NCBI GenBank assembly: GCA_021234155.1
Contig: JAJEKV010000013.1
Span: 18,386,482 to 18,450,481 of the forward strand
Reading direction: 5' to 3'
From: Isoetes taiwanensis
Lineage: Eukaryota > Streptophyta > Lycopodiopsida > Isoetales > Isoetaceae
DNA: 64,000 bases
Position numbers and translations under genes: made by a program. The notes beneath the pieces are model-generated. The model had not been told where the DNA came from. It saw only the letters and a program-made list of their open reading frames with translations, and made no database searches. Position 1 is the first letter of the stretch. Every line of letters begins with the position of its first letter. Below, piece after piece: positions 7,670 to 55,620 of this stretch.

Positions 7670-7745
7670 CTGCACTCAAGTAACAAAGTTGATTAGAAAG
7701 GTGAATAAATAAACTGAAGATATCTAAGAGAGCATAAGCACTTGC
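7670..7745 (-). other. 76-bp GC-AG intron in the NLR
   Basis: On the minus strand the boundary reads AAG|GCAAGT at the 5' side and TTGAGTGCAG|ATG at the 3' side. Reading the flanks in phase 0 joins the end of the NB-ARC/ARC2 region to an acidic linker (EEEEIVEEEEEEGE) and the LRR. GC donors are a known minor class and usually carry a strong surrounding consensus, as here. Confidence 0.7.
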
Positions 7746-8690
7746 CTTTGATGTAGACACATATTTCCAGCCTTTAAGGTTTGCACGCTTCTGAGCAATG
7801 GACCAAAAATGATCATGGCATTGTAGCGCGTCATCCTTGGAAGAAAAAATGGACTCATCTAGGAGGACTTTCAAAATGTCTTCATCTCCAACATACAGTG
7901 CACATCGAGCCATTTCCACTAGTTTTCCACGCCAAACAAGGGCAGCATCGATGAAAGCATCTTGCACAACAGCGGTTTGAGCATCGATACTAGGTTCTAA
8001 AGTTTGGAGCACCGTATCATCCGCATCTGCAGTGGACGGGGATTCAGTAGCTTTCTCAATGCGTTGTTTGACTTTCCTCCACTCGCTTTCTTTACGCCTT
8101 TCTAGCCTTCTAAAATAAGTGCCATATGTATTGATTGCCAAAGGAAGACCATCACATAGTGGGACTATTTCTTTAAGCAAATCTTTCTCCTTATCCTTAT
8201 CTTGAATTCTTGCACAGTGTATGAACAATTGCTCTGCTTCATGGATATCTAGTAAATTGGGCTCAAAAAGTTTGTATGCATTTGAACTTGCATTCGGTGG
8301 ACAAAAAATATCACGAAACTCCTTAGCTACTTCGCAGGATCGCGTGGATAGCATTATACAACTTGACTCTGGAAGGTATTCATCTACATCTTGTGGCAAT
8401 AAGTCTTTTAGATCTTTTACCTTCCAAACATTGTCTACGCATAGACACATGGAAAAGCCCTGTTCTTTTAAACGTTGCAAGCAATGGCTCAATGCATTTC
8501 TACCTTGATCAGGGCTTGTGAATGTCTCATTTTTATTTTCCAATTCCTGCAAGATCTTACTTTGAATTTCCTTTATATTGGCAGGGAGCCTGCCCACCTC
8601 TACAAAAGCTTTAACTTGCTTGGCTCCCTTTGGAAATTCTTGATCGATATAACGTGGTCAACAAAGTAGTCTTTCCAATGCCCCCATTCC
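7746..8690 (-). CDS. NB-ARC nucleotide-binding block of the NLR
   Basis: The block starts at the P-loop (8,664-8,690) and includes an open frame from 8,597 leftward. The P-loop reads as GMGGIGKTT only after allowing one missing base in the G run. Kinase-2 lies near 8,424-8,447, RNBS-B near 8,340-8,365, GLPL near 8,132-8,157 and the MHD-type CHDHF near 7,808-7,824. The GLPL-to-MHD segment has the winged-helix-like VWRGKLVEMARC region. The family binds and exchanges ADP/ATP to switch on immune signalling. The Asp of kinase-2 is present. The MHD Met is replaced by Cys, which may alter autoinhibition. The exon ends at 7,746 at a GC donor. Confidence 0.85.
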
Positions 8691-23074: not shown

Positions 23075-24505
23075 TGACCTTTGTCCTCGATCCCAGTTTT
23101 GTTAAGGAAGTCCTTTGGTATTCGGACGGTTTTTGTTGGTTTCATACGAGCCCCATTCTAGAATCCCATCGATCCGAGACATCGGATGCCATTCTAGAAT
23201 GGGGCGTATGTCTTGTATACATGTATCGCGGCGCATGCCTTTTCTGGTTCGAGTTAAGCTATTTTGGGCGTGGTTCGCATCAACGTCTCATCGCGCTTCC
23301 GCTTCTCTAGCAAGTACCTTATTCTCTTTTCTTTGAACCCACCCTCCCCCTTCTTTGTTTATTGTATTTGTCACCTAGCACGCGTGACCAGCCCCTCTAT
23401 TTGAAGAGGTTTTTGTTTTATTGTCGCGTGGCACGCGAGATCAGCCCCTCCACTCTGGGAGGTTTGTTTTGTCACATTTTTTTTTGTGTTGGTGATGTGA
23501 GGTTGGAGAGTGGCATCTGTTTCGACTTCTCCATTCGTGGGTTTTGGGAGCGATTTCTCTGCCTTACGTTTGTCCAAGCCCCTTGATGAAGGCTTATCAC
23601 TAGGGTTTTTCCTCGAAAACCCGAAAGGGCGGGGTTTTTTAATCCCAGTGATAAGCTTTCTGCAGGTACATCAGCCAAACATCTATTAGCATTGTATTTT
23701 ATGGGGTCCAAATTATATAATTGGATATTCCCTTTATTTTTCATGGGTAGTTCGCATGTGTGTGGCTACCCACTATCCAGACTAGACTAGGCTTCTCATT
23801 CATCTCAGCAGATTTTCTACAATGGTGGGTAGTGGGTAGCTGCACACATGCGAACTACCCAAAAAATAAAGGGAATATCCAATTATATAATTTGGACCCC
23901 ATAAAATACAAGCTAATAGATGTGTGGTTGAAAAATACTGCCGAAAACTTATCACCGATTAAAAAAACCTCCCTTTCGGTTTTCGAGGAAAAACCCTAGT
24001 GATAAGCCTTCGCAAGGGGGCTTGGACAAATATAAGGCATAGAAATCGCCCCAAAACCCACGAATGGAGAAGTCAAAAGATGCCGCCGCCAAAAACCGAC
24101 TCCGCACATCACCAACACAAAAACGCGGACAAAACAAACCTCCCAGAGTGGGGGGGTTGATCCGCGTGCACGCCGACAATAAAACAAAACCTCTTCAAAT
24201 AGAGGGGCTGATCATGCGTGCCAGGCGACAAATACAATAAACAAAGAAGGGGGGAGGGTGGGTTCAAAGAAAAGAGAATAAGATACTGCTGAGAGAGAAG
24301 AGGACAGAACCGCGCCTAAAATAGTGAACTTCTAACCAGAAAGGGCATGCAATGCATGCAAGACATGCATGCTCGCCCCATTCTAGAATGGCGATCCGAT
24401 GTCTCGGATCGATGGGATTCTAGAATGGGGCTCGCATGAAACTAACAAACCGCCCGAATACCAAAGGACTTCCTTAACAAAACTGGGATCGAGGACGAAG
24501 GTCAG
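23075..24505. mobile_element. Foldback element: 1.4-kb near-palindrome
   Basis: The left arm (23,075 to about 23,778) and right arm (about 23,824 to 24,505) are inverted copies separated by only about 45 bp. Matching blocks appear in mirrored order: the terminal GAGGACGAAGGTCA, CCATTCTAGAATGG pairs, ATGCATGC cluster, CCTAAAATAG, GGGGGGAGGGTGGG, the TTTTCGAGGAAAAACCCT block, AATATCCAATTATATAAT and GCACACATGCGAACTACCC. No protein is encoded. A further left-arm copy occupies 22,713-23,075. Related pieces lie at 0.4-0.9, 1.3-2.7, 29.4 and 30.6 kb. This resembles Foldback-type or long-TIR MITE elements in form. I cannot name the superfamily. Confidence 0.8.
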
Positions 24506-30860: not shown

Positions 30861-31811
30861 AAGCAGGCCAAGCAATTGAAAGGAACATCTCTCTATCTGG
30901 ATTTTGATCTTACTAAGTCCCAACAAGTAGCCGCACGCCCGGAATTTGCAAAAGGTCCGTGACATTCAAAAGAATGGTGGTAAAGCCGCGACCGATTCGT
31001 GGAAAACTAATGATTTTACACCATCACATGCAACCTTTTGCTGATGCCTTTCACCATGCTAAGGCCACTTATACCGCTGGGTGTTGAAGTCCATTCTCCC
31101 ATTTCCCATGCACATACCAATCGCCGCAAATGCGCCTACGGTTGTTCCATCTTTGTGACGCCCCCCAATATATAAGACCCCCGGCGTATACATATGGGGG
31201 ACTTTCCCCTCCCATGGCGACCATCTCGCCATGAGCGGTTCCCTCCGGTCTATCCCGCCATCTATAGAGAGATGCCCGTGAAGGACACGAGAGGTGTCAT
31301 TCGCCCACGCCTTCAATGGGACTCCTACGTCGCTGAAGCGTGAATACATGTTAGCACACAAAGATAAATCATATATAAATAACCACTCAAGGGTGGAACA
31401 TCCATCCAAATACCAACGGCAAAGAATATGCATCTAATCCTAAGGAAAGCACCCCAAACCCATGGTTCTACCCCTTCCGGACTCGCGGAGGATAGACCGA
31501 CGGCTCGGTCTCAAGAGATCAGCGCATTTAAGTATAACATGGCGCTGGCTGGCATAGAACATCGGCTAGGGTTGTCCACTCCATCCGCCCCTCATGTGCA
31601 CACTTTGCGGATGAGTCGAATCATGCTATGGCTTCGCTTATAGCCTTCCCGGAGACGCGGCTCGGGTATCACCCTACGAGCCTACTCCAGGTTCATGACG
31701 CCGGTCCGATGAGGCAGGGTCGTGGAAGTCCCCTTCCGGGATCACAAAGTGGTTCCATGGGTGAGCTAGAGAATACGCGTCGCATCGGCGACCCCGCATC
31801 CGCATTCCCCG
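30861..31811. other. Unassigned; possible other LTR near 31,153
   Basis: TGTGACGCCCCCC at about 31,151 is a frequent start of Ty3/Gypsy-type LTRs, but I find no partner copy or matching end. No gene can be supported. Confidence 0.35.
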
Positions 31812-33622
31812 CGACACACCTAGGGGTTGGCGCACAAGTTAACATTTGAGTTTTTAACCATAGGTTAGAGATAATTAACTTTGAAAGAGATTATGAAAAT
31901 ACGATAAATACGGTATTCAGATCATGCTAGATATCTGATGGAATATCGATATGAATAGTGAAGCTAAGTTTAGGAAGATTTTATTGTTAGTTTGGGGAAA
32001 AGGGAAGATATTTTCCTTAACCTTAGGAGTAAGGGTATTTTAAAGAGGAAACGTCTTTTTGTTTGGAAAATTTCGAGAGCTTAGCTGCGCCGCCGAGCTT
32101 AGTTACGTATGAGAACAATCCAAGCAGGTGGGTTAACCGAGCCAAATCCTTGAAAAATCCGCGGATGGCCCGGGCCGATTTGCTTATTTGCTAGTTTTAG
32201 TTGCGGAAGAATGCCGGCTCGCTTTAAGTTTCCCATCTAGCTAATCTGCTATCTACTTAGGAATCATGTTTAATCACAAAGAATAAGGTTAAGAACTCTA
32301 TGGCTATTGCTGACCCCAGCCCAACAAAAGGTTGTCCGGTATCTTCCTCAGATTCCAAATCGCAGCCCATAACGATGAGCCCGCAGACCCTAATCTTTTG
32401 TGCGATCTACCCAGGTTTGAGATGTGATAAAGATCGTGGAAAAGCTTGTGTTTAACTAAACCCGACCTGAGATCTGCTCATTTCGGCCTGTTCCGCCCTT
32501 CCTTGTTGAGTTCCCGGCCATCTCTCGCCAAGTCCGCCCAAGGGGATTCCACCGTAAGTGCCATACAATGTGCCCGAAAGTGACTTGTAGGGGGTTTTTT
32601 CGACCCATTTCCATAATGATAATGCAAGAGGTAGGGGGTTTTTGCCACTACTTGGGGTAAACTTTGTAATTAAGGGGTCGAATTTGCCTTTCAAGAAATC
32701 GTATACGGGGGTGTTTTTGATCACCCTATGCACGCGGCATACCCCCTTACTATAAGTGAACCCCCGAGTCCGCCTCAAGCAAGCCTAAAAGGCTTCGCTT
32801 AATCCTTTGAAACCTATTTGTATCGCTCATAATTTATATTTCACGACATGTTTTAAAACCCATTGATGGATTAGTTGGTTAAGGGTTTAACTTGTTGCCC
32901 CATAGATCCAGCCACGAATTGAAAACCCAAGTTTTGCCTAGTTTTCCTTTTTAACCTCTGTTATGCTTTATTGTCCCAAACATGCTTATCGAAAGTGTTT
33001 TACAAAGGAATTCTTGTTTGTAGTTAATGTTTGTTGAAGCATTGCTCTTTATTTATGGTTTTGCCGATTAATATGATTGTCAACGGAATGTTAATAAGAT
33101 ATGGAATAATTGTGTGAATGAACCCGCTCCCCTTCGCCGATGCCGAGGGCTGAACGGTTGAGCATCGCGTTACACCCGTGATTGGTGTGTGAACGCAGCA
33201 TCCGTGGTCGCTAACGGTGTAATGGAGAGCCCTGGGCGGGGGACTGATCATCCCCGATAACATTAATAATTGATGATGTTGTGTGTTGTGATGTTGTGTT
33301 TCTTTTTTTCATGAAGTTGTGTTGCCATGTTGCGTTTTTCCAGATTGTCTAGACCAGGTAACGGTTGCCCACTTAGTCCTTGTCCCGACTAATCCCCATC
33401 ATTTCATTCTCTTTTCTTACAGATTATTCTAGTAGTTACGCGGACCGCTGAGCAAGGGGAGCATGAGCCATAGAAGAGATGCTATTTTGTGTTGAATTCC
33501 TATGTAGTTCCAATTGTAACCTTGAGTTATGAATATTATTAATGAAAGATATTTATTATCCGGGTCCTTTATTCTCTCTCTCGTGTTTGATCTCATGTGT
33601 TTAACGCCTAGGAGCCGCTTCA
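31812..33622 (+). repeat. 5' LTR of the gag-only retrotransposon
   Basis: 1,811 bp. It differs from the 3' LTR mainly by one segment of about 235 bp (about 32,540-32,775) flanked on both sides by AGTCCGCC. It preserves the uninterrupted site ATTAATAATTGATGATG (about 33,263-33,280), where the other LTR has a Helitron. Long minus-strand frames in the extra segment are not thought real. Confidence 0.85.
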
Positions 33623-33626
33623 TTTT

Positions 33627-33640
33627 TGGTATCGTGAGCC
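33627..33640 (+). promoter_or_regulatory. Primer-binding site of the gag-only element
   Basis: TGGTATCGTGAGCC lies four bases after the LTR end. It resembles the initiator-Met tRNA site TGGTATCAGAGCC but with one change and one extra base, so priming may be weakened or the read imperfect. Confidence 0.7.
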
Positions 33641-34038
33641 TAGGTTCCCATCATTAACCATTGTTTGGTTATTGGGCCAGGGCCAATGGGAGTCATTAAC
33701 ATTAGAGTTATGGGAGCCAAGAAGGAAAACTTCTTGGGAAAGCTATCTAGTCGAGATATTAAGCATGGTCAGAGGGGGCAAGGGAGAGCCTACCTGAAGC
33801 TTCGAAATGGGAGAACTAGGAAAACCCGAAACCAAGGCCACACGATAGATCCTATGAACCTCCTGAAAGGATAGATGTCTGCGTGATTAGATCACGTGTG
33901 TATTCTCTTGAGAATGAATTAAAATATGTTTTACTTGTGTCAACCATTCCCGGCTAGCACTAACCTTATGTTAAGGATTGGACTTAGATTGTCTTGCTAG
34001 AACTCTAACAAACTTGCTAAGGTGGATTATAGATTAAC

Positions 34039-35063
34039 ATGGAGGGAGGTGATGACAACGCGGCAGTACAAATGCTAGGTCAAATACTGCAAGGAGTGCA
34101 GCAGCAGTTGGGTTTGCTCCAGAACCAGATGCCTGTTGCAAAAGATCCGGTAGCGGACGAGATTAACAAGATCCTTCGCAATGTCAAGCAAGAACGATTT
34201 ACGGGAAAGGATACCACAGGCGATGATGCAGACGCATGGCTCCGTGGCATAGAATTCTATTTTAGCGTAAAGAAGACGCCTGAAAAGCAGAAAGCTGTTA
34301 TTGCGGATTTGTTACTCACCAGCTATGCTAAGATTTGGTGGGACGATTATAAGAAGATCCATAAGCTTACCTTTGGAGATATTGACTGATGTGTTCCAGT
34401 GAAAGCTTTTTTGGGTTACATTACCTACCTGTGGGATATAGATTGGCGAAGATGCATGATTTCTTGAATTTGCTCCAAACAAATTCAGTTGAAGATTATA
34501 CAGTTAAGTTCCAGCAATTGCAGCCTTATGGACCTCCGTTCGAGCCAGAACAGTTAGCTGATAAGTATATTAAAGGTTTGAAGCCAGAATTGTCTGTTTT
34601 AATTGGAGGTGTTACATATCCTAGCTTGGGTGAAGCGATTAGAGCTGCTAAATATAAGGAAGTAGTATTGGAGACAACACGGAAGAAGCGTACAAATGAT
34701 GATGATGTAGGTTGGAATCAGTTTGACAATCGCCGACAACGAGTTGAGGATATTTTGACATTGAAAAGTATCAATAATGGACAATGCCAATCTGAAGCAG
34801 AAAAGTTAAGGGAGAAGTTATTTCGAGAACGTAAGTGTTTTTATTGCCACCAAGTGGGTCATCAAATGAGAGATTGTCCCCAGAAGTTACAGGAACATCG
34901 GATTGCTTATGGCATATCCAATCCGCGGGGTGGAGGTACTCCGGAGGATAACCGGGGTAAACAGCCCATGCATGCTCGAGCAATTACCATTGAAGATGCA
35001 GTCCAAGAGTCTGTGCGTGCATGTGCAGCTACTGATGGGAATCCACCTGTAGGCCCAAGCTAG
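34039..35063 (+). CDS. Retrotransposon Gag (capsid plus zinc knuckle), one frameshift
   Basis: The ATG at 34,039 opens a 116-residue frame (MEGGDDNAAVQML ...) with WLRGIEFYF and IWWDDYKK, typical of the retrotransposon gag capsid domain. It stops at TGA (34,387-34,389) right after FGDID. The next frame takes over at about 34,390 and continues with YLPVGYRLAKMHDFLNL, YTVKFQQL and a complete CCHC knuckle CFYCHQVGHQMRDC (about 34,836-34,877), ending at TAG (35,061-35,063). The two frames together make one normal gag. Gag packages element RNA. With no pol following, copying would need enzymes in trans. The slip may be real or a base error. Confidence 0.85.
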
Positions 35064-35138
35064 TATGATTTGTGTTCCACGTAAGTTTGAGAATCTTTCC
35101 ATGAGGACATGGGTAAATTTTTAGTGTGGGAGAAATTG

Positions 35139-36374
35139 TGACACACCTAGGGGGTTGGCAGACAAGTTAACATTTGAGTTTTTAACCATAGGTTAGAAAT
35201 AATTAACTTTGAAAGAGATTATGAAAATAATGCATAAATACTGTGATTCAGATTATGCTAGATATCCGATGGAATATCGATATGAATAGTGAAGCTAAGT
35301 TTAGGAAGATTTTATTGTTAGTTTGGGAAAAGGGAAGATATTTTCCTTTAACCTTAGGAGTAAGGGTATTTTAAAGGCTTAAACGCCTTTTGTTTGGAAA
35401 ATTTCCAGAGAGCTTAGCCAGCGCCATCGAGGTCTTAGTTACAGAAGGAGAACAATCCAAGCAGGTGGGTTAACCGGAGCCAAATCCTTGAAAAATCCGT
35501 GATGGCTTGGCCGCGTATTTGCTTATTTACTAGTTTTAGTTGCGAAGAATGCGGTTCTCGCTTTTAAGTTTCCCATCTAGCTAATCTTTATCTACTTAGG
35601 AATCATGTTTAATCATAGCAATAAGGTTAAGAACTCTATGGCTATTGCTGAGCCCAGCCTGAATTGGTTGTTGTCCCGGTACCTTCCTCACAGATTCCAA
35701 ATCGCAGCCCATAACTGATGAGCCCGCAGACCCTAATCTTTGTGCGGGATCTACCCAGTTTGAGATGTGATAAAGATCATGAAAAGCTTGTGTTTAACTA
35801 AACCCGACCTGAGATCCGCCATTCCGCCTGTTCCGGCCTTCCTTGTTGAGTTCGCCATCTCTCGCCAAGTCCGCCCGCTTTAAGCAGCTAAAAGGCTTCG
35901 CTTAATCCTTTGAAACCTATTTGTATCGTTCATAATTTATATTTCACGACGTGTTTTTAAAAATCCATTGATGGATTAGTTGGTTAAGGGTTTAACTTGT
36001 TGCCCCATAGATCCAGGTTCAATTTCGTTGAAACCCAAGTTTTGCCTAGTTTTCCTTTTTAACCTCTGTTATGCTTTATTGTCCCAAACATACTTACCGA
36101 GTGTTTTACAAAGGAATTCTTGTTTGTAGTTAATGTTTGTTGAAGCATTGCTCTTTATTTATGGTTTTGCTGATTAATATGATTGTCAACGGAATGTTAA
36201 TAAGATATGGAATAATTGTGTGAATGAACCCGCTCCCTTCGTCGATGCCGGAGGGCTGGAACGGTTGAGCATCGTGCACACCAGGTGATTGGTGTGTGAA
36301 CGTGCATCCGTGTCGCGAACGGTGTACGTGAGAGCCTGGGCGAGGGACTGATCATCCCTGGATAACATTAATAA
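35139..36374 (+). repeat. 3' LTR, left part
   Basis: It begins TGACACACCTAGGGGG and follows the 5' LTR to GATAACATTAATAA, where it is cut by the Helitron. A purine-rich GTGTGGGAGAAATTG just before it (35,124-35,138) is a plausible polypurine primer. Confidence 0.85.
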
Positions 36375-39300
36375 CTAGTAATGATGCCCAGCGTTGCTGG
36401 GCATATGTTTGGTACATGTAGATGATCCGAGAGAAGAAAAGAGCCAGACATAGACTAACTGACTTTGTAATAATGAGATGGGCTTCACTTGTAATATATA
36501 AACTTCGAAGCCTTTCGTTAAAACTAACTTTGTAATCTTGGGAGAAGCTTCACTTGAATTATAATATAAACTTCGGAACTTCCTTGTTCTAATATGAAAA
36601 TTTATGGGCAAAGTTGGAGACATGTCGTTATATATAATAGTCACTAATTTTGCACTTTGTATATTGGAGGAAGAGATAATAGGCACTTATTTTGCACTTT
36701 TTTTGGTATATTAGAGGAAGAGGTTTTAGTATGAAGGATTTTAAAGTTTGTTTATTTTGTTGCATTTATACACCCACTTTATAGATATTGGTTTGAAATG
36801 TATAAGTATCTTCTTTTAATGGACACCCAAATGGGACAATATAAACCTTGAGAAATTATATTTTTGTGAAATTTGTATTCAAACTTGCACAACATGTCAA
36901 GGCGAGAAACTGGCCATGCAACACCATGGCTGCATTTGATTTCAGTAGTCTAATTCTACCAATATATTAGTCAAAGTTGGTAACTCGATTATGTGAGTGG
37001 TGCCGCTACTATTTGTATTACCTGAAAATGATGTAGTAATCAGTTTACATGAGGATGGTTGTTGCCATAAAGAACATGCTTTTAATCACATGATAGGCAC
37101 TATGCCATGAAACATTTTCCTTTCAAATTTTTCTAGCCTACTTGTCCACAAAAGCGGGCAAAAAAAAAGCAGGTTTTGTTTTTGGTGTAAAGCATGTTAT
37201 GTTTGAGGATTTTAGTTTGAGCAAGTGAGCTGTTTAAAACAGAGTACCCATCATAATATTTTCCCCTTAAAAGGCTCTTGCTCTTGGCTCTAGTATTATC
37301 AATACCTGGAAATTGTAACATCATTAGAAAATATTTAATGGGTTGACAAAAAGCAAGAACAGACCTTTTCTTTGATCTTGGCATGATATGCTATTTTGCA
37401 TAGCAATAATAACAACCCTACCAATAATAACAACCCGTGAGCTAATAATAACAATCAGAGATGACTAAGAGTACAAACTTTTTTGAAAACAAAATTAAGA
37501 CCGTAAGCCCCTTCAACCCTCAAAACATGTTTCCATAAGTACCGGTTTGAAAGAGGCATTGTATGATCAATCTCAAGTTGTTATCCAGGGCATAATGTCA
37601 CCAACCACACAATGCAAAAAAGTGCTACAGATTGACTTGTATTTTAATTCTGTGCCGGGAAAAGCCATGCATAAAGTGTTTCATTTAGATAAGTCGTATC
37701 CTTAATTATATTGTTTCTTGATGATGTAATATATGTTTCATCAATTTGAGTGTGCTGATCCCGGATATACAACCAGATCTTGAAAGACATTAATATCAAC
37801 ATGCACTAATCCATCAAACATGCCAACCTAGGCATAAAGCGAGAACAATGAAGAAATTTGTAGTAAAAATAGCTCCTCCCTATTGATCCTCCCCATGAAA
37901 AGTCCCAAAAACAGACAAAGATAATCACCTAGGAGCAAAACCAAAAGTGCATTAACCCCTCTATTAAGCGTTTTTCTTTTTTTTTTGCCATTGCATGATG
38001 CTCTCATAAAAACTTTGAGTACATATGTGTCTTGTAAAAACAATGCCACAGAAAAACATACAGTCCCAATAAATGCCAAAAGCAATTTTCTGATTCAACT
38101 TTCAATTGGGTTGATAGGGCCAATATGAACTTATTTGCAGATTGGCATGAAAAGTATAATGTGGGCGGTTTTATGATGCTAACTTGATTCATTTCTATAC
38201 TAGATTCCCTTGATTTACTATAAAATGTCAAAATTCACTTTCATAAGTCGCATAATTCCTCCATGAGGACATGCAATCACAAATTTAGTAAGACAAACTC
38301 TTTAACATGACATAAATTGATCAAGGAGTAGAAATGGCGGCCTTTAAACATGCTCCACATCCTCATATATATCTTCTTTATGCATGTAATAAATGAAGAA
38401 AGTACAAAATGATTGGTCTGAAAACATACCGCTAGAATATAGAAGCTTTCCCCGGATTAGAAAATCTTTTGTCTTCCCTCGGTCAGAGAACCAATATATA
38501 CTCTATCTGTTTCACATCTTTGCACTCTCTAGCTAATCTAGGTTTGTCTCGTGAGTGGTGTTTGCAAACCATAGGTTCCAAATTGTACACACCTTTTTGA
38601 TATCTATAAGAAGGTGGTAATATTTATGTTTAGACCGTAAGACCCAAAACATGCTTTGAAAAAACTTGGCCAGACCAAATCTTACTTAACATCACCATCA
38701 CTTTGAAAAATAGACTCATCCGTTGATTGAGTCTTGTTGATTTGTCTTGTTCGTCACAAGGCAAGAGCGATATCTTCAAGTGATCCACATTAAAGTAAGA
38801 TCTAAAGAATCTACAATGCATACCTCAAGATTTTAGCAATCTCCTCCTTCCTAATCATACCACTTTTACCTAGCTTCAAAACCTTGTTGCCGCACCAAAG
38901 TGTCATTCTCATCCATCTGCCGTAAATATCATGCAAATGATGATATGTTGAAACGCCCTCGAGGTATATTGTATCCGCCGCAAAATGCCCTTTCGTGCGA
39001 GATTAACAACAAAGTCCATAGTTCCGCACACCAAAAAGTCTATGGCAATCTTGACAGAAAACTATTTAAACCTTCTTCCATCGCATCCTTATTTATATTT
39101 TGCCATTTTGTCTTTAAAAGAATGGCTAGATTACCCATTATGGTTTAATCCGCCTCCCATAGACCAATTTCAAATGATGAAACACCAACAAAGCCTAGTT
39201 TATAGTTTTTTAACCTCCATCTAGTAGAGTAGGATCCCAAACATACTTTTGAAAGACGTTTAGGAAAATGAATTCGAACTTTGCAGTTAAATCATCCAAG

Positions 39301-39565
39301 CATTGCACGCTTATTTATGGAAAACCTATGATTAAGGGCAAAGTCAACTAAGAGTGTCCCTAAATCGCAAGCTATGGAATACACAGTGAAAAGCAGAGAA
39401 CCCGCTTGTTAAAAGCCGCTGCTAGTCCAAGGTGGAAAAACCTGCCCTAAATCGATACAGCGAGAAGAAGTGAAACCCGTAGGCATCCGACCGTCGCTTT
39501 GCTCAAAATCCGGTGCCTATTTTAGGGCCCGGTCCATTACTTGCATCAACCCCGGTAATATAAGA
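36375..39565 (-). mobile_element. Complete non-autonomous Helitron inserted in the 3' LTR
   Basis: The element lies on the minus strand. The plus strand begins CTAGTAATGATGCCCAGCG (CTAG at 36,375-36,378, hairpin GCCCAGCGTTGCTGGGC) and ends AATATAAGA at 39,565, which on the minus strand is the 5' terminus TCTTATATTACCGGGG. It is 3,191 bp long. Host bases are A before and T after, and the flanks join to exactly the empty site in the other LTR, with no duplicated or lost base. No Rep/helicase is encoded. I recognise no captured gene in its interior. Confidence 0.93.
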
Positions 39566-39906
39566 TTGATGATGTTGTGTTTGTGATGTTGTGTTTCTTT
39601 TCTGCCGAAGTTGTGCGCGCGCTGGGCGCTTCCATTGTCTAGACCAGTAACTGGTTGCCCACTTAGTCCTTGTCCCGGACTAATCCCCATCATTTCATTC
39701 TCTTTCATGCATTATTCTAGTAGTTACGCGGACCGCTGAGCTTAGGGGAGCATGAGCCATAGAAGAGATGCTATTTTGTGTTGAATTCCTATGTAGTTCC
39801 AATTGTAAACCTTGTTATGAATATTATTAATGAAAGATATTTGCCATCCGGGTCCTTTATTCTCTCTCATGTTTGATCTCGTGTTTAACGCCTAGGAGCC
39901 GCTTCA
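39566..39906 (+). repeat. 3' LTR, right part
   Basis: It resumes TTGATGATGTTGTG and continues parallel to 33,275-33,622 of the 5' LTR, ending CCGCTTCA at 39,906. Confidence 0.9.
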
Positions 39907-43432: not shown

Positions 43433-46400
43433 CGGCTGCCCCACGGTTCTAATGCTAACCCTTTGACCTAAAATTCGACCTTTCCAAAAATTAGGATCCA
43501 AATGGCAAAATTGGGTCGTATTTCGCAATGGTATTAATATGAATTTAATCGATCCAGCTGGCAAAAAAATCCAAATTTATTTGCTCGTGGCAATGCATTA
43601 ATTAATGAATTTAAAACGTGTTGCCACTGTGGTTTACGCTCGAGGCCCTTCTAATTCGGTCCACATCGAGGGAGGACAGGTCCAAACGCGGACCCTGGGG
43701 CCTCCGGAGGCTGCTTTCTCAAATTTCTGGCCAAGAACGCAACCTCCCAACCACTGGCTCTCGCCAATGGACTCCAACGTTGACAGAAACTAAGTTCCGT
43801 GGGCTAAAAGATCACAGACTCGCCTCAAAACGTAAACCCTTCTAGAGCCCTGCAACCCACGTGTTTACGCTTCGGAGGCCCTCCTTGTCGTGATTTGGGT
43901 CGACCTAGCGCCATGTCTTGAAGTGGAGTTGGGGTGTTGACGCCGTGAGCTGACACCTAAAATCCTCCGAGGTCGCTGCTGTCCCAAATTTCCTCTCCTA
44001 AGGCCCTGAAGGAACGCAACCTCCCATCTCCCGAATCACGGGATGGCTCGCTAATGGACTCGTAACGTCGACATTGCCCCGAAACCAAGTTCCGGGCCGT
44101 AAGACCAGATTCCTCGCCCCGCAAAACGTAAACCCTTCTAGAGCGCCCGCAACCCACATGATTACCGGGAGGCCCTCCTTGTCGATTCGGGCCGGGACTT
44201 TGGCGCCATGTCTTGAAGTGGAGTTGGGGTGTTGACGCCTGCATTCTGCGGACACTTTTTGGATCCTCCTAAGCCGCTTGCCCCCGAATTTCCTCCCCCG
44301 CAGGCCCCGCCGGGAAGGATTGCGCAACCCCCTCACCGAACCGCTGATTTGGCTCTGCCAATGGACTTTATTTTCGCGGTAATGCCGACATTGCCCTTGG
44401 GATCCCAACTTCCCGGGCTGGGAAGACCAGATTCGCCCCAAAAATGCGAAAACCCCTTCTAGAGCCCGGGCAAAACTGTGGTTTACGCTGAGGCCCTCTC
44501 CTCGTCGATTCGCCGACCTTTGCGCGCGGTCTTGAAGTGGAGTTGGGGTGTTGACGCCGAGCTGGACCCTAAAATCCTCCCGAGGTCGCTGTCCCAAATT
44601 TCCTCTCCCTGGCCCCCGGGGACGGACGGGCACCTCCCTCTCCGAATCGGGCGATTCCACTCGCTTAATGGACTTTTAACGCCGACATTGCCTCGGGGAC
44701 CAAGTTCCGTAACTTGCTCACCCAAACTCCAAGAAGCCCAAAGTAGCTCACTTCCATCACACTCCGAGTCAATTGGCCTAGGATGTGCATGCTGATACCG
44801 CCGTGGAGGGCGTGGAGTGTTTCCTTCTTTCGAAAACCGACCGTAACTTGCTCCCTAGGGTAATTTCGCCATTCCTGACGATTTGGTAGGGTCTATTTGC
44901 CATTCCCAGCATCCCTGCGTTAACGACAAAACAAGCATGGGGCTTACAAGGCCGACATCGACGCCGCTGCTTGACAAGTTCTCCCTGACCGATCTGGAAT
45001 CTTTGGACCTTCCCAAGAGGGGCCCCCTAACGGAGGATCCAACGGTCGGATAGGGGAACCGGGTCCGGAGGGTGGTCATTAGCGCGCAGCCCCGGGAGCG
45101 CCAGAAGGGCTGCCTCGAAACTTTTTGATCCCGGCCCCGGTCCCACTCTCCCCTTTGTGAGGGATCCCCTAGCTGTCCCGCCTCGCTTGACTTGGGAAGG
45201 GTGCCACTGTTGCCCCGCAACGGCTGCCCCGACCGCTCTAATGCTAACCCTTTGACCTAGACCTTCTCCTAAAAAATTCAAAAATTGGGCCGTGGTGGAG
45301 ATGAATTAGGGATCCAGCTGCAAAAAGCCGGAATTTATTTTCGCAATGCATTAATTGCGAATTTACGAATGTCTTGCCATCTGCAGAAAGCGACTTCTAC
45401 TTGCCACATCGGGAGGAGGAAAGGCCCCAAACTCCGCCCGCCGGCCTCTTGTTCGTATTCCTGGCCGCCGCTCAGGTCCTGCGCAAATGCACTGTGACTC
45501 GCCCCCAAAACGTAAACCCTTCTAGAGCCTCGCAAACCCATGGTTTTATAAGCTGAGGCCCCCTCCTGTCGATTCGGCCGGACCTTGCGCCGTGTCTTGA
45601 AGTGGAGTTGGGGTGTTGGACGCCGAGCTGACTTAAAATTCCTCCCAGAGGCTGCTTTGCCCCAAATTTCTCTCCCTGCTGGCCCCGGGATCTGACGGGC
45701 GACCTCCTCCCAATCGGGCGATTCGACTCGCCAATGGACTCGAACGCCGACATTGCCCCGGGGACCAAGTTCCGCGGGCCGTAAGACCACCAACTCCAAG
45801 AAGCCCAAAGTAGCTCACTTCCATCACACTCGTAGTCAATTGGCCTAGGATGTGCATGCGGATACCGGCCGTGGAGGGCGGAGTGTTTCCTTTCTTTCGC
45901 AAAACCGACCGTAACTTGCTCCCTAGGGTAATTTCGCCATTCCTGACGCATTTGGCAGGTCTATTTGCCATTCCCGTGAGCATCCCTGCGTCTCTAACGA
46001 CAAAACAAAGGCGGTTTCTACAAGGCCGACATCAGGACGCCCCCGCTTGACAAGTTCTCCCGACCGATCTGAATCTTTTTGACCTTCCCGGCGAGGGGCC
46101 CCCGAACGGAGGATCCAACTGGCCGGATAGGGGAACCGCCCCGGAGGGTGGTCATTAGCTGCAGCCCCTGGGAGCGCCGCCAGAAGGGCTGCCTCGAACT
46201 TTTTTGATCCCGCCTCCCCGGGTCCTGACTCTCCCTCTGTGAGGGATCCCCGCAAGGTCCCCGCCTCGCTTGACTTGGGAAGGGTGCCAGCTCCGCTGTT
46301 CCCCGAACGGCTGCCCCACCGCTCTAATGCTAACCCTTGACCTAGACCTTTCTCCTAAAAATTCAAAATTGGGCCGCAGTGCCGGAGATGAATTAGGGAT

Positions 46401-49400
46401 CCAGCCGCAAAACCGAATTTATTTTTTTCGCAATGCATTAATTGCGAATTTAATAATGTCTTGCCATCAGCAAAAGCTCGGATTTCTACTTGCCACATCG
46501 GGAGGAGGAAAGGCCCAAACTCCGCCCGCCGGGCCTCTTGCTCCGTGATTCTCGGCCGCCGCCGCCGGTCCCAAGTGCAATGTACATCAGACTCGCCCCC
46601 AAAACGTAAACCCTTCTAGAGCCCTGGCAACCCACAGGGTTTACGCCGAGGCCCTCCCTTGTCGTGATTCGCCGACCTTGCGCCGCCGTTCTTGAAGTGG
46701 AGTTGGGGTGTTGACGCCAGAGCGCTGGACCCTAAAATCCTCCGAGGTCGCTGTCCCCAAATTTCCTCCCCCTGCCCCTCGGGACGGGACGGGCGCCCTC
46801 TCTCCGAATCGCGATCTGATCCGACCGCCAATGGACTCGTAACGCCGACATTGCCCTCGGGACCAAGTTCCGCGGGCCGTAAGACCACCAACTCCAAGAA
46901 GCCAAAAGTAGCTCACTTCCATCACACTCGTAGTCAATTGGCCTAGATGTGCATGCGGGATACCGCCGTGGGAGGGCGGAGTGTTTCCTTTCTTTCGCAA
47001 AACCGACCGCGGTAACTTGCTCCCTAGGGTAATTTCGCCATTCCTGACGATTTGGCAGGGTCTATTTGCCATTCCTGAGCATCCCTGCGTCTCGAACGAC
47101 AAAACAAAGGCGGTTTCTACAAGGTCGACATCGACGCTTCCTGGTTTGACAAGTTCTCCCGACCGATCTGAATCTTTTGACCTTCCCCGGAAGAGGGGCC
47201 CCCGAACGGAGGATCCAACGGCCGGATAGGGGAACCGGCCCGGAGGGTGGTCATTAGCGCAGCCCCGGGGAGCGCCGCCAGAAGGGCTGCCTCTGAACTT
47301 TTTGATCCCGCCCCCGGGTCCTGGACTCTCCCCTCTTGTGAGGGATCCCCGCAAGGTCCCGGCCTCGCTTGACTTGGGAAGGGTGCCACCGCTGCTGTTC
47401 CCGCAACCCGCTGCCCCGACCGCTCTAATGCTAACCCTTTGACCTAGACCTTCTCCTAAAATTCAAAAATTGGGCCGCAGGCCGGAGATGAATTAGGGAT
47501 CCAAATGGCAAAAACCGAATTTATTTTCGCGGCAATGCATTAATTGCGAATTTATTTAATGTCTTGCCATCAAAAAAAGCCTCACTTCTACTTGCCACAT
47601 CGGGAGGAGGAAAGGCCCAAACTCCGCCCCGCCGGCCTCCTTGTTCAGATTTCTGGCCGCCGCTTCTGCCAGTCCTGCGTGCAACAGACAGACTCGCCCC
47701 CCAAAACGTAAACCCCTTCTAGAGCCCGGCAACCCACCGTGGTTTACGCTTCGAGGCCCTCTCCTTGTCGATTCGCCGACCTTATACCGCGGTCTTGAAG
47801 TGGAGTTGGGGTGTTGACGCCGTGAGCTGACCCTAAAATCCTCCTCCTGAGGTCGCTAGTTCCCCAAATTTCTCTCCCCAAGGCCCCCTGGGACCTGACG
47901 GGCGACCTCCCCTCTCCTGGACCGCGATCTGACTCGCCAATGGACTCGTAACGCCGACATTGCCCCTGGGACCAAGTTCCGGGGCCAAGACCACCAACTC
48001 CAAGAAGCGCCAAAGTAGCTCACTTCCATCACACTCGTAGTCAATTGGCCTAGGATGCATGATGGATACCGCCGTGGAGGGCGGAGTGTTTCCTTCTTCG
48101 CAAAACCGACCGTAATAACTTGCTCCCCTAGGGTAATTTCGCCATTCCTTCGATTTGGTGTGGTCTATTTGCCATTCCCGAGCATCCCTGCGTCCGAACG
48201 ACAAAAACAAAGGCGGTTTCTACAAGGCCGACATCGACGCTCCGCGGGTTTGACAAGTTCTCCTGACCGATCTGAATCTTTTGACCTTCCCCAAGAGGGC
48301 TCCCGAACGGAGGATCCAACGGCCGGATAGGGGAACCGGCCCGGAGGGTGGTCATTAGCGCAGCAGCCCCGGGAGCGCCAGAAGGGCTGCCTCGAACTTT
48401 TTTTGATCCCGCCTCCCCGGGTCCCGACTCTCCCTCTTGTGAGGGATCCCCGCAAGGTCCCCGCCTCGCTTTGACTTGGGGAGGGTGCCACCTGCTCCCC
48501 GAACGCTGCCCCGACCGCTCTAATGCTAACCCTTTGACCTAGACCTTCTCCTAAAATTCAAAATTGGGCCGTAGGCCGAGATGAATTAGGGATCCACCGC
48601 AAAAACCGAATTTATTTTCGCAATGCATTAATTGCGAATTTACTTAATGTCTTGCCACGCAAAAGCTCGGACTTCTACTTGCCACATCGAGGAGGAGGAA
48701 AGGCCCAAACTCCGCCCCGCCGGGCCCTTGTTCCATATTCTCTGCACCGCTTCTCGCCAGTCCTGCGCAACACTGTGACTCGCCCCCAAAACGTAAACCC
48801 TTCTAGAGCCCCGCAACCCACGTGGTTTACGCTTCGAGGCCCTCTCCTTGTCGATTCGCCGGACCTTGCGCCGTCTTGAAGTGGAGTTAGGGGTGTTGAC
48901 GCCAGAGGACTTAAAATCCTCCGAGGTCGCTGCCCCAAATTTCCTCTCCCCAAGGCCCCTGGGACGACGGGCGCACCTCCCCTCTCCGAATCGCGACCGA
49001 CTCGCCAATGGACTCGTAACGCCGACATTGCCCTGGGACTAAGTTCCGTGGGCCGAAGACCACCCGAACTCCAAGAAGCGCAAAGTAGCTCACTTCCATC
49101 ACACTCGTAGTCAATTGGCCTAGGATGTGCATGCGGGATACCGCCGTGGAGGGCGGAGTGTTTCTTCTTTCGCAAAACCGACCGTAACTTGCTCCCTAGG
49201 GTAATTTCGCCATTCCCACGATTTGGCAGGTCTATTTGCCATTCCCGAGCATCCCCTCGCGTCCCGAACGACAAAACAAGGCGGTTTCTACAAGGTCGAC
49301 ATCGACGCCCCGCGGTTTGACAAGTTCTCCCTGACCGATCTGGAATCTTTTGACCTTCCCCGAAGAGGGGCCCCCGAACGGAGGATCCAACTGGCCGGAT

Positions 49401-52400
49401 AGGGGAACCGCCCCCGAGGGTGGTCATTAGCGCAGCCCCGGGAGCGCCGCCAGAAGGGCTGCCTTGAACTTTTTGATCCCGCCTCCGGGTCCCGGGACTC
49501 TCCCCTCTTGTGAGGGATCCCCGCAAGGTCCCGCCTCGCTTGACTTGGGGGAAGGGTGCCACCGCTGTTCCCCCGCAACAACGCTGCCCCCGACCGCTCT
49601 AATGCTAACCCTTTGACCTAGACCTTTCTCCAAAAATTCAAAATTGGGCCGCGGGCTGAGATGAATTAGGGATCCACCGGCAAAACCGAATTTATTTTCG
49701 CAGCAATGCATTAATTGTGAATTTATTTAATGTCTTGCCACTCGCAAAAGCCTCCCCACTTCTACTTGCTACATCGGGAGGAGGGAAAGGCCCAAACTCC
49801 GCCCGCCGGGCCTCCCTTGCTCCATATTCCCTGGCCGCCGCTTCGCCGTGTCCTTATGCGTGCAACAGACAGAGACCTCGCCCCCAAAACGAAACCCTTC
49901 TAGAGCCCGGCAACCCACTGTGGTTTACGCTTCGAGGCCCTCTCCTTTGTCAGATTCGGCCGACCTTGCGCTCGCGGTCTTGAAGTGGAGTTGGTGTTGA
50001 CGCCAGAAAGCGCTGACCCTAAAATCCCTCCCAGGCTGCTTGCCCCAAATTTCTCTCCCCAAGGCCCCGGGACTGACGGGCGGGCACTTCCCCTCCTCCT
50101 GAATCGCGACCGACTCGCCAATGGACTCCGAACGCCGACATTGCCCTGGGACTAAAGTTCCGCGGGCCAGAAGACCACCAACTCCAAGAAGTATGCAAAG
50201 TAGCTCACTTCCATCACACTCGTAGTCAATTGGCCTAGGATGTGCATGGATACCGCCGCGGAGGGCGTGGAGTGTTTCCTTCTTTCGCAAAACCGACCGT
50301 GTAACTTGCTCCCTAGGGTAATTTCGCCATTCCTGACGATTTGGCAGGGTCTATTTGCCATTCCTGAGCATCCCCGCGTCCGAACGACAAAACAAAGGCG
50401 GTTTCTACAAGGTCGACATCGACGACCTCTGGTTTGACAAGTTCTCCCGACCGATCTGAATCTTTGACCTTCCCCGAAGAGGGGCCCCGAACGGAGGATC
50501 CAACTGGCCGGATAGGGGAACCGCCCCGGAGGGTGGTCATTAGCGCAGCCCCGGGAGCGCCGCAGAAGGGTCACCGAACTTTTTTTTGGATCCCGGGCCC
50601 CGGGTCCTGGACTCTCCCCTCTTGTGAGGGATCCCCGCAAGGTCCCGCCTCGCTTGACTTGGGGAAGGGTGCCGCCGTTGCCCCGCAAACGCGCTGCCCC
50701 GACCGCTCTAATGCTAACCCTTTGACCTAGACCTTCTCCGAAAATTCAAAATTGGGCCGCAGTGCCGGAGATGAATTAGGGATCCACCCGGCAAAACCGA
50801 ATTTATTTTCGCAATGCATTAATTGGCGAATTTATTTAATGTCTTGCCATCGCAAAAAGCTCGACTTCTACTTCTGCCACATCGAGGAGGAAAGGCCCAA
50901 ACTCCGCCCGCCGGGCCTCCCTTGTTCGTGATTCTCTGGCTGCCGCCGCTGCCAGTCCCAGTGCAACATCAGATATCGCCCCCAAAACGTAAAACCCTTC
51001 TAGAGCCCGGCAACCCACATGGTTTACGCTTTCGAGGCCCCTCTCCTTGTCGATTCGGCCGACCTTGGCGCCGTCTTGAAGTGGAGTTGGGGTGTTGACG
51101 CCGTGAGCTGACCCTAAAATCCTCCCGAGGCTGCTTGCCCCAAATTTCCTCTCCCTAAGGCCCCTCGGGACTGACGGGCGACCTCCCTCTCCTGGACCTG
51201 GACTCGACCGCCAATGGACTCCAAACGCCGACATTGCCCCTGGGACCAAGTTCCGCGGGCCGAAGACCACCCTAACTCCAAGAAGCCAAAGTAGCTCACT
51301 TCCATCACACTCCGTAGTCAATTGGCCTAGATGATGCATGCGATACCGCCGGGAGGGCGGAGTGTTTCCTTCTTTCGCAAAACCGACCGCGTAACTTGCT
51401 CCCTAGGGTAATTTCGCCATTCCTGACGATTTGGCAGGTCTATTTGCCATTCCTGAGCATCCCGGCGTCTCAACGACAAAAACAAGGCGCTTCTACAAGG
51501 TCGACATCGACGCTTCCAAGGTTTGACAAGTTCTCCCTGACCGATCTGAATCTTTTGACCTTCCCCAAGAGGGGCCCCCCCGAACCAGGGATCCAACTGG
51601 CCGGATAGGGGAACCTGCCCGGAGGGTGGTCATTAGCTAGCGCAGCCCCGGGAGCCCGCCAGAAGGGCTGCCTCGAACTTTTTTGATCCCGCCCCCGGGT
51701 CCTGACTCTCCCCTCTTGTGAGGGATCCCCGCAAGGTCCCGGCCTCGCTTGACTTGGGAAGGGTGCCACCGGCTGTTCTGCAACGGGCTGCCCCGACCGC
51801 TCTAATGCTAACCCTTTGACCTAGACCTTCTCCTCGGGGTATTCAAAAATTGGGCCGTAGGCCGAGATGAATTAGGGATCCAACCGGCAAAAACCGAATT
51901 TATTTTCGTGGCAATGCATTAATTGCGAATTTACTTTAATGTCTTGCCATCGCAAAAGCTCGACTTCTACTTGCCACATCGGGAGGAGGAAAGGCCCAAA
52001 CTCCGCCCACGCCTCCCTTGTCTCAGATTCTCTACCGCCGCTTCTACCAGTCCCAGTGCAACAGATTCAGGACTCGCCCCCCAAAACGTAAACCCTTCTA
52101 GAGCCCGGCAACCCATGGGTTTACGCCGGGAGGCCCTCTCCTTGTCGATTCGGCCGGACCTTGCGCCGTCTTGAAGTGGAGTTAGGGTGTTGACGCCAGA
52201 GCGCTGACCCTAAAATCTCTCCTGAGGCCGCTTGCCCCAAATTTCTCTCCCAAGGCCCCGGGACGGGACGCAACCTCCCTCTCCTGAATCGCGATCCGAC
52301 CGCCAATGGACTCTTTAACGCCGACATTGCCCCTGGGGACCAAGTTCCGTGGGCAAAGACCACCAACTCCAAGAAGCGCCAAAGTAGCTCACTTCCATCA

Positions 52401-54526
52401 CACTCGTAGTAATTGGCCTAGGATGTGCATGCTGATACCGTCGCGGGAGGGCGCGAGTGTTTCCTTCTTTCGCGAAAACCGACCGCGGTAACTTGCTCCC
52501 TAGGGTAATTTCGCCATTCCCGACGATTTGGCGGTGGTCTATTTGCCATTCCGAGCATCCCTGCGTCCGAACGACAAAACAAAGGCGGTTTCTACAAGGT
52601 CGACATCGACGCCGGGGTTTGACAAGTTCTCCTGACCGATCTGGAATCTTTTTGACCTTCCCCCAAGAGGGGCCCCTCGAACGGAGGATCCAACTGGCCG
52701 GATAGGGGAACCGGCCCTGAGGGTGGTCATTAGCTGCACCCTCGGGAGCGCCGCCAGAAGGGTCTGCCTCGAACTTTTTGGATCCCCGGCCCTCGGGTCC
52801 CGACTCTCCCCTCTTGTGAGGGATCCCCGCAAGGTCCCGCCTCGCTTGACTTGGGAAGGGTGCCACCTGATGCTCCGCAACCGCTGCCCCGGGACCGCTC
52901 TAATGCTAACCCTTTGACCTAGACCTTCTCCTAAAATTCAAAAATTGGGCCGGTAGCCGGAGATGAATTAGGGATCCACCGCAAAACCGAATTTATTTTC
53001 GCAATGCATTAATTCGCGAATTTATTTAATGTCTTGCCACCGCAAAAAGCGCCCCCACTTCTACTTGCCACACGGGAGGAGGAAAGGCCCAAACTCCGGG
53101 CCCGCCGGGCCTCCCCTTGTCCGTATTCTGGCTGGCGCTTCTGCCAGTCCCAGTGCAACAGACAGACTCGCCCCCAAAACGTAAACCCTTCTAGAGCCCG
53201 CAAACCCACGTGGTTTACGCCGGAGGCCCTCTCCTTGTCGATTCGCCGACCTTGCGCCAGGTCTTGAAGTGGAGTTGGGGTGTTGACGCCAGAAGGCGCT
53301 GACCCTAAAATTCCTCGAGGTCGCTTGCCCCAAATTTCTCTCCCTAAGGCCCCGGGACCTTACGGACGCGACCTCCCTCTCCTAATTATGATCCGGACTC
53401 GCCAATGGACTCGTAACGCCGACATTGCCCCGGGACAAGTTCCGTGGGCCAGAAGACCACCCGAACCCAAGAAGCCAAAGTAGCTCACTTCCATCACACT
53501 CGTAGTCAATTGGCCTAGGATGTGCATGCGATATAATCGTCGTGGAGGGCGTGAGGTTTCCTTCTTCGCAAAACCGACCGTAACTTGCTCCCTAGGGTAA
53601 TTTCGCCATTCCTGACGATTTGGCAGTGGTCTATTTGCCATTCCCGAAAGCATCCCCTGCGTGCCCGAACGACAAAACAAAGGCGTTTCTACAAGGCCGA
53701 CATCAGACGCTTCCGCTGGTTTGACAAGTTCTCCCGACCGATCTGGAATCTTTTGGACCTTCCCCAAGAGGGGCCCCCGAATCCGAGGATCCAACTGGCC
53801 GGATAGGGGAACCGCCCCTGGAGGGTGGGTCATTAGCGCAGGCCGGGAGCTGCCAGAAGGGCTGCCTCTCTGAACTTTTTGGATCCCGGCCTCCGGGTCC
53901 TGGACTCTCCCTCTTGTGAGGGATCCCCCAAAAGGTCCCGCCTCGCTTTGACTTGGGAAGGGTGCCCTCCTGCTGTTGCCCCGCAATCCGGCCTGCCCGA
54001 CCGCTCTAATGCTAACCCTTTGACCTAGACCTTCTCCTAAAAATTCAAAATTGGGCCGCAGGCCGAGATGAATTAGGGATCCACCGGCAAAACCGAATTT
54101 ATTTTCATGCAATGCATTAATTGACGATTTACTAATGTCTTGCCATCGCAAAAGCTCTCGACTTCTACTTGCCACAACGGGAGGAGGAAAGGCCCAAACT
54201 CCGGCCCGGCCGGGCCTCTTGCTCCAGATTCTCGGCCGCCGCCGCCAGGTCCCAAGTGCAAATGCATCCAGACTTCCCCCTCAAAACGTAAACCCTTCTA
54301 GAGCCCGGCAACCCACAGGTTTACGCTTAAAGGCCCTCTCCTGTCGATTCGGGCGGACCTTTGCGTAGCCCCTCTTGAAGTGGAGTTGGGGTGTTGACGC
54401 CAGAGCGCCGGGACCCTAAAATCCTCCCGAGGTCGCTTGCCCCAAATTTCCTCTCCCCTAAGGCCCTGACCTGGACGGGACTTAATTCCTAATCGCGATC
54501 GATTTATCCCATGGACTTTAACGCCG
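43433..54526. repeat. Satellite array, ~1.09-kb unit, nine periods
   Basis: The landmark TCTTGAAGTGGAGTTGGGG recurs at about 43,915, 44,210, 44,529, 45,594, 46,689, 47,792, 48,873, 49,977, 51,073, 52,168, 53,261 and 54,372. From 44,529 on the spacing is 1,065-1,111 bp (mean about 1,094). Units are head-to-tail. Some segments are nearly identical in all copies (TCTAATGCTAACCCTTTGAC; TTGCTCCCTAGGGTAATTTC; TAGTCAATTGGCCTAG). Others, all C/G-rich, differ in every copy by small indels. Many long minus-strand frames cross the array, but they break at different places in each unit and show no domain. No rRNA or tRNA gene is present. The array ends abruptly at about 54,526. Confidence 0.93.
43620..44529. 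repeat. Short (~0.3-kb) derivative satellite units at the array edge
   Basis: The first three landmark intervals are only about 295-319 bp. In these units the segment after GACCAAGTTCCG...AAGACCA joins directly to the segment before AACGTAAACCCTTCTAGAG, which skips about 0.79 kb of the full unit. The short form is itself repeated, so the deletion came before its amplification. Confidence 0.8.
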
Positions 54527-55620
54527 ATCAAGTGGTCGGCAAGCTTGATTTAGTATGAAAGTATGCAAGTGAAGCTCAATGGTGCACAAGTCCGGGTTTA
54601 TTAAAGTGGATAGATAAACAAGGATGGAGAGAAATCTAAGTGGGATACATAAACAAGAATAGATAAAATACATAAGTAATGAAACAAATCTAAGTTGCTA
54701 ATAATATTAACTTAAAAAAAGGACACGCCGATATAAAACCAAAAAGTCACAAATGAAAGCATAGGGCGGCTCTAGAATAGGTATAGCTTAACCGCCCAAA
54801 TCCTGCATCGATAACAAATTAATTGCCGTGGCCCAAATCACATTCATATGGACTCATTATGGAGTGTACGAAATTGAATATCTCGAACTCAAATTCAAGG
54901 TGAGACGCCGTTGAACCCCGGTCGTGGTCCAAAACCCTTAGCGCAATCTATGAAGAGGCCGCAACCATATATGAAGTTGTATGTGATCATGCACGAGAGA
55001 ATATGGCAAATCAAAGAAGCTCTTCTTGCGCCTTTGCATGGACCAGAGTCGGGCATGCCTTGTGTAGATTGTATGCGTAAGAGCAACCCGGTGAGCCATA
55101 TGTTTGCAATCGCTACGCCATGATCAAGTGATTGGCAAGCTTGATTTAGTATGAAAGTATGCAAGTGAAGCTCAATGGTGCACAAGTCCGGTTTATTAAA
55201 GTGGATAGATAAACAAGGATGGAGAGAAATCTAAGTGGATAGATAAAGAAGGATAGATAAAATACATAAGTAATGAAACAAATCTAAGTTGCTAATAATA
55301 TTAACTTAAAAAAGGACACGCTCGCTTGGAACCGAAACATCGCTATAAACGCCGCTCAAATTAAAATTACGTACGCCGAAAAAAAAAAAGATTGCTAATA
55401 ATAATAACTTAATTAAAAAAGACACGCCGTTATAAACCAAAACGTCACAAATGAAAGCATAGGGCGGGCTCTAGAATAGGTATAGCTTAACCGGCCCAAA
55501 TCCGTGGATCGACAACAAATTAATTGTTGTATATACATTCGTATGGACTCATTATGGAGTGTACGAAATTGAATATCTCGAACTCGAATTCAAGGTGAGT
55601 AGGATATGTTATATTAAGGT
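54527..55620. repeat. 0.6-0.7-kb direct duplication next to the satellite
   Basis: GATCAAGTGGTCGGCAAGCT (54,527) and GATCAAGTGATTGGCAAGCT (about 55,122) start two parallel copies that share the block GAAAGTATGCAAGTGAAGCT, the block GGATAGATAAACAAGGATGG and a GGCTCTAGAATAGGTATAGC block (54,769; about 55,466). The second copy carries about 100 bp extra around 55,320-55,420. A frame at 54,911-55,123 has no recognisable domain. Confidence 0.8.

Follow-up and report, generated by a model that had tools for sequence, protein, structure and literature searches.

Introduction

Helitrons with well-described ends are available from maize and wheat. In the parts of these reports that deal with element structure, the Helitrons of maize (PMC2267711) and the Xuan-Feng Helitrons of wheat (PMC13286980) have features in common with the element described here, namely a 5′ terminal TC, a 3′ terminal CTAG, a hairpin near the 3′ end and insertion at AT without duplication. 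Head-to-tail joints between Helitrons are known in maize (PMC2267711) and in bats (PMC5876387); in the relevant section of the bat report they count in favour of rolling-circle transposition, and that of the maize report also offers the insertion of one Helitron beside another.

In our study, we analysed a stretch of 64,000 nucleotides from Isoetes taiwanensis (the window). The window was found to contain a Helitron of the plant type, inserted cleanly between an A and a T in the 3′ LTR of a retrotransposon. The 5′ LTR of the same retrotransposon is uninterrupted and provides an internal empty site, so the locus is a clean and self-controlled example of Helitron insertion.

Results

Host retrotransposon

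The retrotransposon and the insert comprise the following features.

31810–33621, plus strand: 5′ LTR, uninterrupted (alignment with the 3′ LTR)
33622–35136, plus strand: short internal part, between the LTR ends
34386–35060, plus strand: gag-type frame with a CCHC zinc knuckle (Pfam Retrotrans_gag 1.4e-5, zf-CCHC 5.4e-5; the sole interior frame scanned)
35137–36374, plus strand: 3′ LTR, left part (LTR-LTR alignment)
36375–39565, minus strand: presumed non-autonomous Helitron (3,191 bp) that runs from its 5′ end at 39565 to its 3′ end at 36375
39566–39906, plus strand: 3′ LTR, right part (LTR-LTR alignment)

The 5′ LTR contained an extra segment of about 240 bp (about 32540–32780) that was missing from the 3′ LTR. 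The LTR-to-LTR spacing was 3,106 bp; among the sampled LTR match rows, eight other row pairs were spaced by 3.0–3.1 kb and one pair by 1.8 kb. A complete pol would not fit into the interior of 1.5 kb. We take the element to be similar to TR-GAG, the gag-only LTR elements of plants, in its gag and its spacing (LTRs about 3.1 kb apart and a short gag-coding interior). A matching 5-bp duplication was not seen at the outer edges of the retrotransposon (TTCCC on the left, CAAAT on the right), which could be due to consensus errors or to a later rearrangement.

Insertion joint and empty sites

The 3′ LTR was found to be broken after nucleotide 36374, and removal of nucleotides 36375–39565, with the two flanks joined by script, restored the match to the 5′ LTR. 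The joint in the split 3′ LTR reads ATTAATAA/TTGATGATG (a slash marks a joint throughout), and the unbroken ATTAATAATTGATGATG is present at 33262–33278 in the 5′ LTR, with 0 host bases gained or lost. Because the alignment passes the joint without an extra or a missing base, 36375–39565 is an insertion. The sequence-only reading had proposed an exact A/T joint with no duplication and no deletion, and an insert of 3,191 bp; both were borne out when the 5′ LTR was aligned with the rejoined 3′ LTR. The order of events that it gave, retrotransposon first and Helitron second, also holds. The Helitron signals that it had named (5′ TC, hairpin and CTAG) are present, but their orientation had to be corrected, since the plus strand of the insert starts with CTAG and ends with GA and the Helitron therefore lies on the minus strand.

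External empty sites were sampled by a genome search (query 33000–33621), which gave 41 match rows with 40 of 217 candidates scored; three of the rows were the window itself. The joint was uninterrupted in all 29 fetched LTR copies (L032–L060) by alignment, with base changes at the joint in some, and five further copies crossed it in one unbroken match row. Thus 34 of the 36 other sampled LTR copies (29 at base level and 5 by row) were uninterrupted at the joint, and the two split copies were those on contigs C985 and C974.

Ends and genome copies of the Helitron

The terminal features of the Helitron were as follows.

39564–39565, minus strand: 5′ terminal TC, preceded by a host A; the same end occurs in other copies
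36375–36378, minus strand: 3′ terminal CTAG, followed on the minus strand by a host T
36384–36404, minus strand: subterminal hairpin with a 9-bp stem and a 3-nt loop, 5 nt before CTAG

The hairpin had a folding energy of -10.3 kcal/mol (z -5.3), and none of 200 shuffles was equally good; it was found to be damaged in copy L004. The sequence-only reading had pointed to a search for other copies with the same ends, and in the genome (1.66 Gb, 1110 contigs) at least five more copies with both ends were found (L002–L006) at 74–90% BLAST identity, with 40 of 475 candidates scored. Copy L006 had both ends and an internal stretch without a match. The six copies, including that of the window (L001), were present in six different flanks, i.e., the same ends in unrelated surroundings, which marks the element as mobile. 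Read on the TC...CTRR strand, all six showed A/TC...CTRR/T; the 3′ end was CTAG in five copies and CTAA in L004.

Searching the genome with 35 letters from the 5′ end gave 477 matches with up to 3 mismatches, whereas the reversed control gave 0. Twelve further 5′ ends were read. The search pattern contained the C of the terminal TC and not the T, and the T was seen before the pattern in 12/12, so that all of them carried TC; the TC was preceded by a host A in 11/12 and by the CTAG of another Helitron in 1/12.

Other features of the window

Four more 3′ ends of the Helitron type (hairpin followed by CTAG/T) were present in the window at 12998 (plus), 13310 (minus), 20991 (plus) and 22100 (minus). 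The one at 12998 was detected by the hairpin scan only, and the other three were similar by BLAST to the 3′ end of the window Helitron (E 0.004, 2.6e-5 and 5e-8). Their 5′ ends were not found. The window also contained a tandem array from 44428 to 54527 that repeats about every 1.09 kb, with copies mostly 82–87% alike by self-BLAST (TRF, whose maximum period is 500, gave no rows for it), and a long imperfect palindrome at 23075–24504, where about 1.4 kb matched its own reverse complement at 82%. A frame on the minus strand (7584–8657) contained an NB-ARC domain (Pfam E 1.2e-15), a domain that occurs in plant resistance genes.

Coding content

Helitrons are known to capture gene fragments. A minus-strand frame of copy L002 was found to match the aconitase / 3-isopropylmalate dehydratase large-subunit family (NCBIfam NF001614, E 7e-7; PDB 4nqy and 4kp1, E 0.003; Pfam Aconitase, E 0.007). 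The Pfam and NCBIfam scores were under the curated whole-protein cut-offs, as expected for a fragment. In the window copy the corresponding feature is as follows.

38437–38564, minus strand: captured exon-like piece of a 3-isopropylmalate dehydratase large-subunit gene (aconitase family), from the L002 protein matches, placed by BLAST of the L002 piece

The dehydratase motif was unreadable in the window copy at this position; besides L002 it was readable, with variable damage, in 15 other fetched loci. Pattern matches to the motif in L037 and L061 look like chance. The sequence after the captured piece looks like an intron. A literature search linking Helitrons with isopropylmalate gave nothing apparently relevant.

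A RepHel protein is expected in autonomous Helitrons, and its absence fits a non-autonomous copy. Pfam gave no RepHel match in the 6 frames scanned of the 13 L002 frames of at least 60 amino acids, and the element was therefore taken as non-autonomous, which the window Helitron probably is.

Blended stretch at the 5′ side of the Helitron

39064–39565, no strand: stretch mixing Helitron and LTR letters (tested over 39040–39565, left edge set by eye), a probable consensus artefact

In 39040–39565, copy L002 accounted for 424 of the 526 letters. The 5′ LTR accounted for 88 and the 3′ LTR for 85 of the remaining 102, and 200 shuffles of the 3′ LTR explained a mean of 59% (sd 4.5, maximum 70%). Helitron-only and LTR-only letters formed 77 runs over 258 informative sites; full random mixing would give 117 (sd 7). 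The blended letters thus lie in short patches, and the longest LTR-only run, read off the printed string, was 5 informative letters. The same region of four other full-length copies scored 67–91 against the 3′ LTR, where the shuffle means were 62–70; these scores were at most about 2.3 sd above the means, and all four copies stayed below every shuffle maximum. A first interpretation, in which the 5′ end of the Helitron was derived from an LTR, was dropped, as these four copies had no LTR likeness beyond shuffles.

Because LTR letters are blended into the right ~500 bp of the insert, the right joint rests partly on the other Helitron copies, which share the right-side end ...TATAAGA/T. The sequence-only reading had cautioned that raw reads might disagree with the assembly, and for this part of the insert the caution was justified. 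The length of the stretch, about 500 bp, would match the window that a widely used polishing program applies by default.

Private differences and the LTR comparison

The left 500 bp of the insert was clean, with 1 private difference site in 431 bases where L002–L004 agree. In 36875–39039, comparison with L002–L004 gave 191 private difference sites in the window copy, of which 108 (57%) lay at most one base from a C-N-G triplet, where 16% would be expected. In copy L005, 82 of 117 private sites (70%) were near C-N-G, again against 16%. These triplets include the CHG sites of both strands, and CHG sites are often methylated in plant transposons. When grouped, the private sites of the window copy in 36875–39039 formed 111 events, of which 7 were C>T or G>A and 58 were indels or complex changes. 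With so few C>T or G>A changes and so many indels or complex changes, base-calling errors at methylated sites fit better than decay, and such errors in nanopore data, on which the assembly is presumably based, suit the private changes. A review of plant nanopore sequencing, in the part concerned, states that modified bases hamper base-calling (PMC7501810).

The two window LTRs were 91.2% identical over 601 compared sites (33000–33621 and its partner), and for each of them several other genome copies were more similar than the partner LTR (best values 93.3% and 92.7%). In 538 agreed bases they had 48 and 56 private difference sites, respectively. Six reference LTR copies, each compared with the other five, had 0, 7, 2, 4, 26 and 39, and two more copies had 13 and 23. 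The C-N-G excess was weaker in the window LTRs (27% and 20% against 12%). Much of the divergence between the two LTRs looks like consensus error. Such noise would inflate dates based on LTR divergence, and dating is therefore unsafe here: the assembly consensus is unreliable inside repeats, and the age of a retrotransposon taken from LTR differences would come out too great.

A second Helitron in the same part of the LTR

The LTR copy on contig C985 (L074, G000:C985:4909500-4911800) belongs to the same family and contained an oppositely oriented, distinct Helitron of 1,863 bp, with the joint GGATAACATTAA/TC...CTAG/TAATTGATGATG. Its insertion site is an A/T located 3 bp to the left of the site of the window Helitron. 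It had 43 bp of its 3′ end and about 50 bp of its 5′ end in common with the window Helitron or L002; the interior showed no match to either at E 0.001. A target-site duplication was absent in both the window and the C985 Helitrons, as compared with the empty site. On contig C974 (L075), about 287 bp replaced about 28 bp at the same spot of the LTR, and no Helitron ends were seen in this insert. All three sampled LTR copies that were split into separate rows (window, C985 and C974) had their break at this spot, and no split fell at another place of the 622-bp query.

The probability that two Helitrons fall within 3 bp is 0.009 if A/T sites of the 5′ LTR are chosen at random. In ease of melting among 148 A/T sites, the spot ranked 16th with a 12-bp window, 18th with a 20-bp window and 71st with a 40-bp window. 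We tentatively suggest, with more doubt than confidence, that the AT-rich spot of this LTR family is a hot target for Helitrons, from the two opposite-facing Helitrons 3 bp apart and the C974 insertion; as there are two Helitron events, the case is suggestive only. A literature search on Helitron hotspots gave nothing apparently on point. If the hot spot is true, the repeated LTR would provide many natural target sites at which the target choice of Helitrons could be measured.

Discussion

The observations fit an account in which the LTR retrotransposon, whose short interior codes for gag, inserted first. A Helitron later entered an AT-rich spot of the 3′ LTR between A and T, in the minus orientation and with no target-site duplication. 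The Helitron, probably non-autonomous, would have been moved by a Rep-helicase supplied from elsewhere by an autonomous helper, through the rolling-circle chemistry of Helitron insertion, and the blended ~500 bp would be an assembly consensus of reads with and without the Helitron. The exact joint, both ends of the element, its recurrence elsewhere and the A/T rule were observed directly, and we have very little doubt about the account as a whole.

The right end of the insert might instead not be Helitron at all, if 39012–39906 were one diverged LTR, and if the split had arisen when LTR copies recombined or underwent gene conversion. Indeed, 39012–39565 is in register with the LTR up to the joint and scored 247, where the maximum in 300 shuffles was 122, and 39075–39274 and 39175–39374 were 8–9 sd above 60 shuffles each. 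Nine other segments of the insert were scored in the same way: 38775–39340, which overlaps the blend, scored 210 and the best of the other eight, 36375–36940, scored 143, which is above the shuffle maximum of 122, so that the LTR score alone is not clean. However, five other copies, each in its own flanks, have the same terminal base, the four copies tested there lack LTR likeness beyond shuffles, and the LTR letters of the window copy are interleaved every few bases instead of forming long tracts, all of which makes a diverged LTR highly improbable. A consensus error, in which Helitron-bearing reads were mixed with reads lacking the Helitron, is most likely the source of the blend, as judged from the letters of the assembly.

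The mixed reads could come from a heterozygous locus with one empty and one filled allele, in which case the insertion would be young and polymorphic. The blended letters fit the LTR up to the joint and private changes are almost absent from the left 500 bp of the insert, as such a locus would have it. However, when eight LTR sequences were compared for the 102 letters, the 5′ LTR (88), L032 (86), and the 3′ LTR and L033 (85 each) fitted about equally; the source LTR is thus not distinguishable, and since the letters point to no single locus, reads from other LTR copies could be the cause. Heterozygosity is therefore unlikely, though it deserves more weight than the diverged LTR. The private differences could also be true mutations in an old methylated element, given that they cluster at C-N-G triplets, including CHG sites. 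Decay by methylation is expected to give mostly C>T, whereas the small share of C>T or G>A and the many indel or complex events in 36875–39039 leave this reading only a slim chance, and base-calling error is preferred for these changes.

Comparison with known Helitrons

Head-to-tail joints were also found in the family of the window Helitron. A 31-letter pattern, in which CTAG is joined to the 5′ end, gave 8 exact matches in the genome; with up to 3 mismatches it gave 272 matches, with ordinary insertions mixed in, and 0 with the reversed control. On contig C1039, two exact CTAG/TC joints of like orientation were separated by 3,181 bp, a distance near one element length, and direct CTAG/TC head-to-tail joints were present at L073 (contig C66) and at C128:52262. 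We considered whether contig C128 contains a long Helitron array and rejected this reading, as the unit there repeats at about 14.6 kb and holds other coding frames (CACTA-transposase-like by eye); one head-to-tail Helitron joint remains on C128 in the part read.

These direct joints, with G/T replacing A/T, are like those between adjacent Helitrons in the section of the maize report on such elements (PMC2267711) and in bats; the difference is that in our study they were found at related loci of the family and not at the window insertion. In the portion of the wheat report that describes it, Xuan1 is without a transposase (PMC13286980), as none was seen in the window copy, and the summary of that report gives 10–15 bp from the hairpin to the 3′ end, whereas the distance in the window Helitron is 9 nt. 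The element described here thus differs in family and host from the maize and wheat Helitrons with which it was compared; it is of a kind already known, and its insertion is a real but ordinary event.
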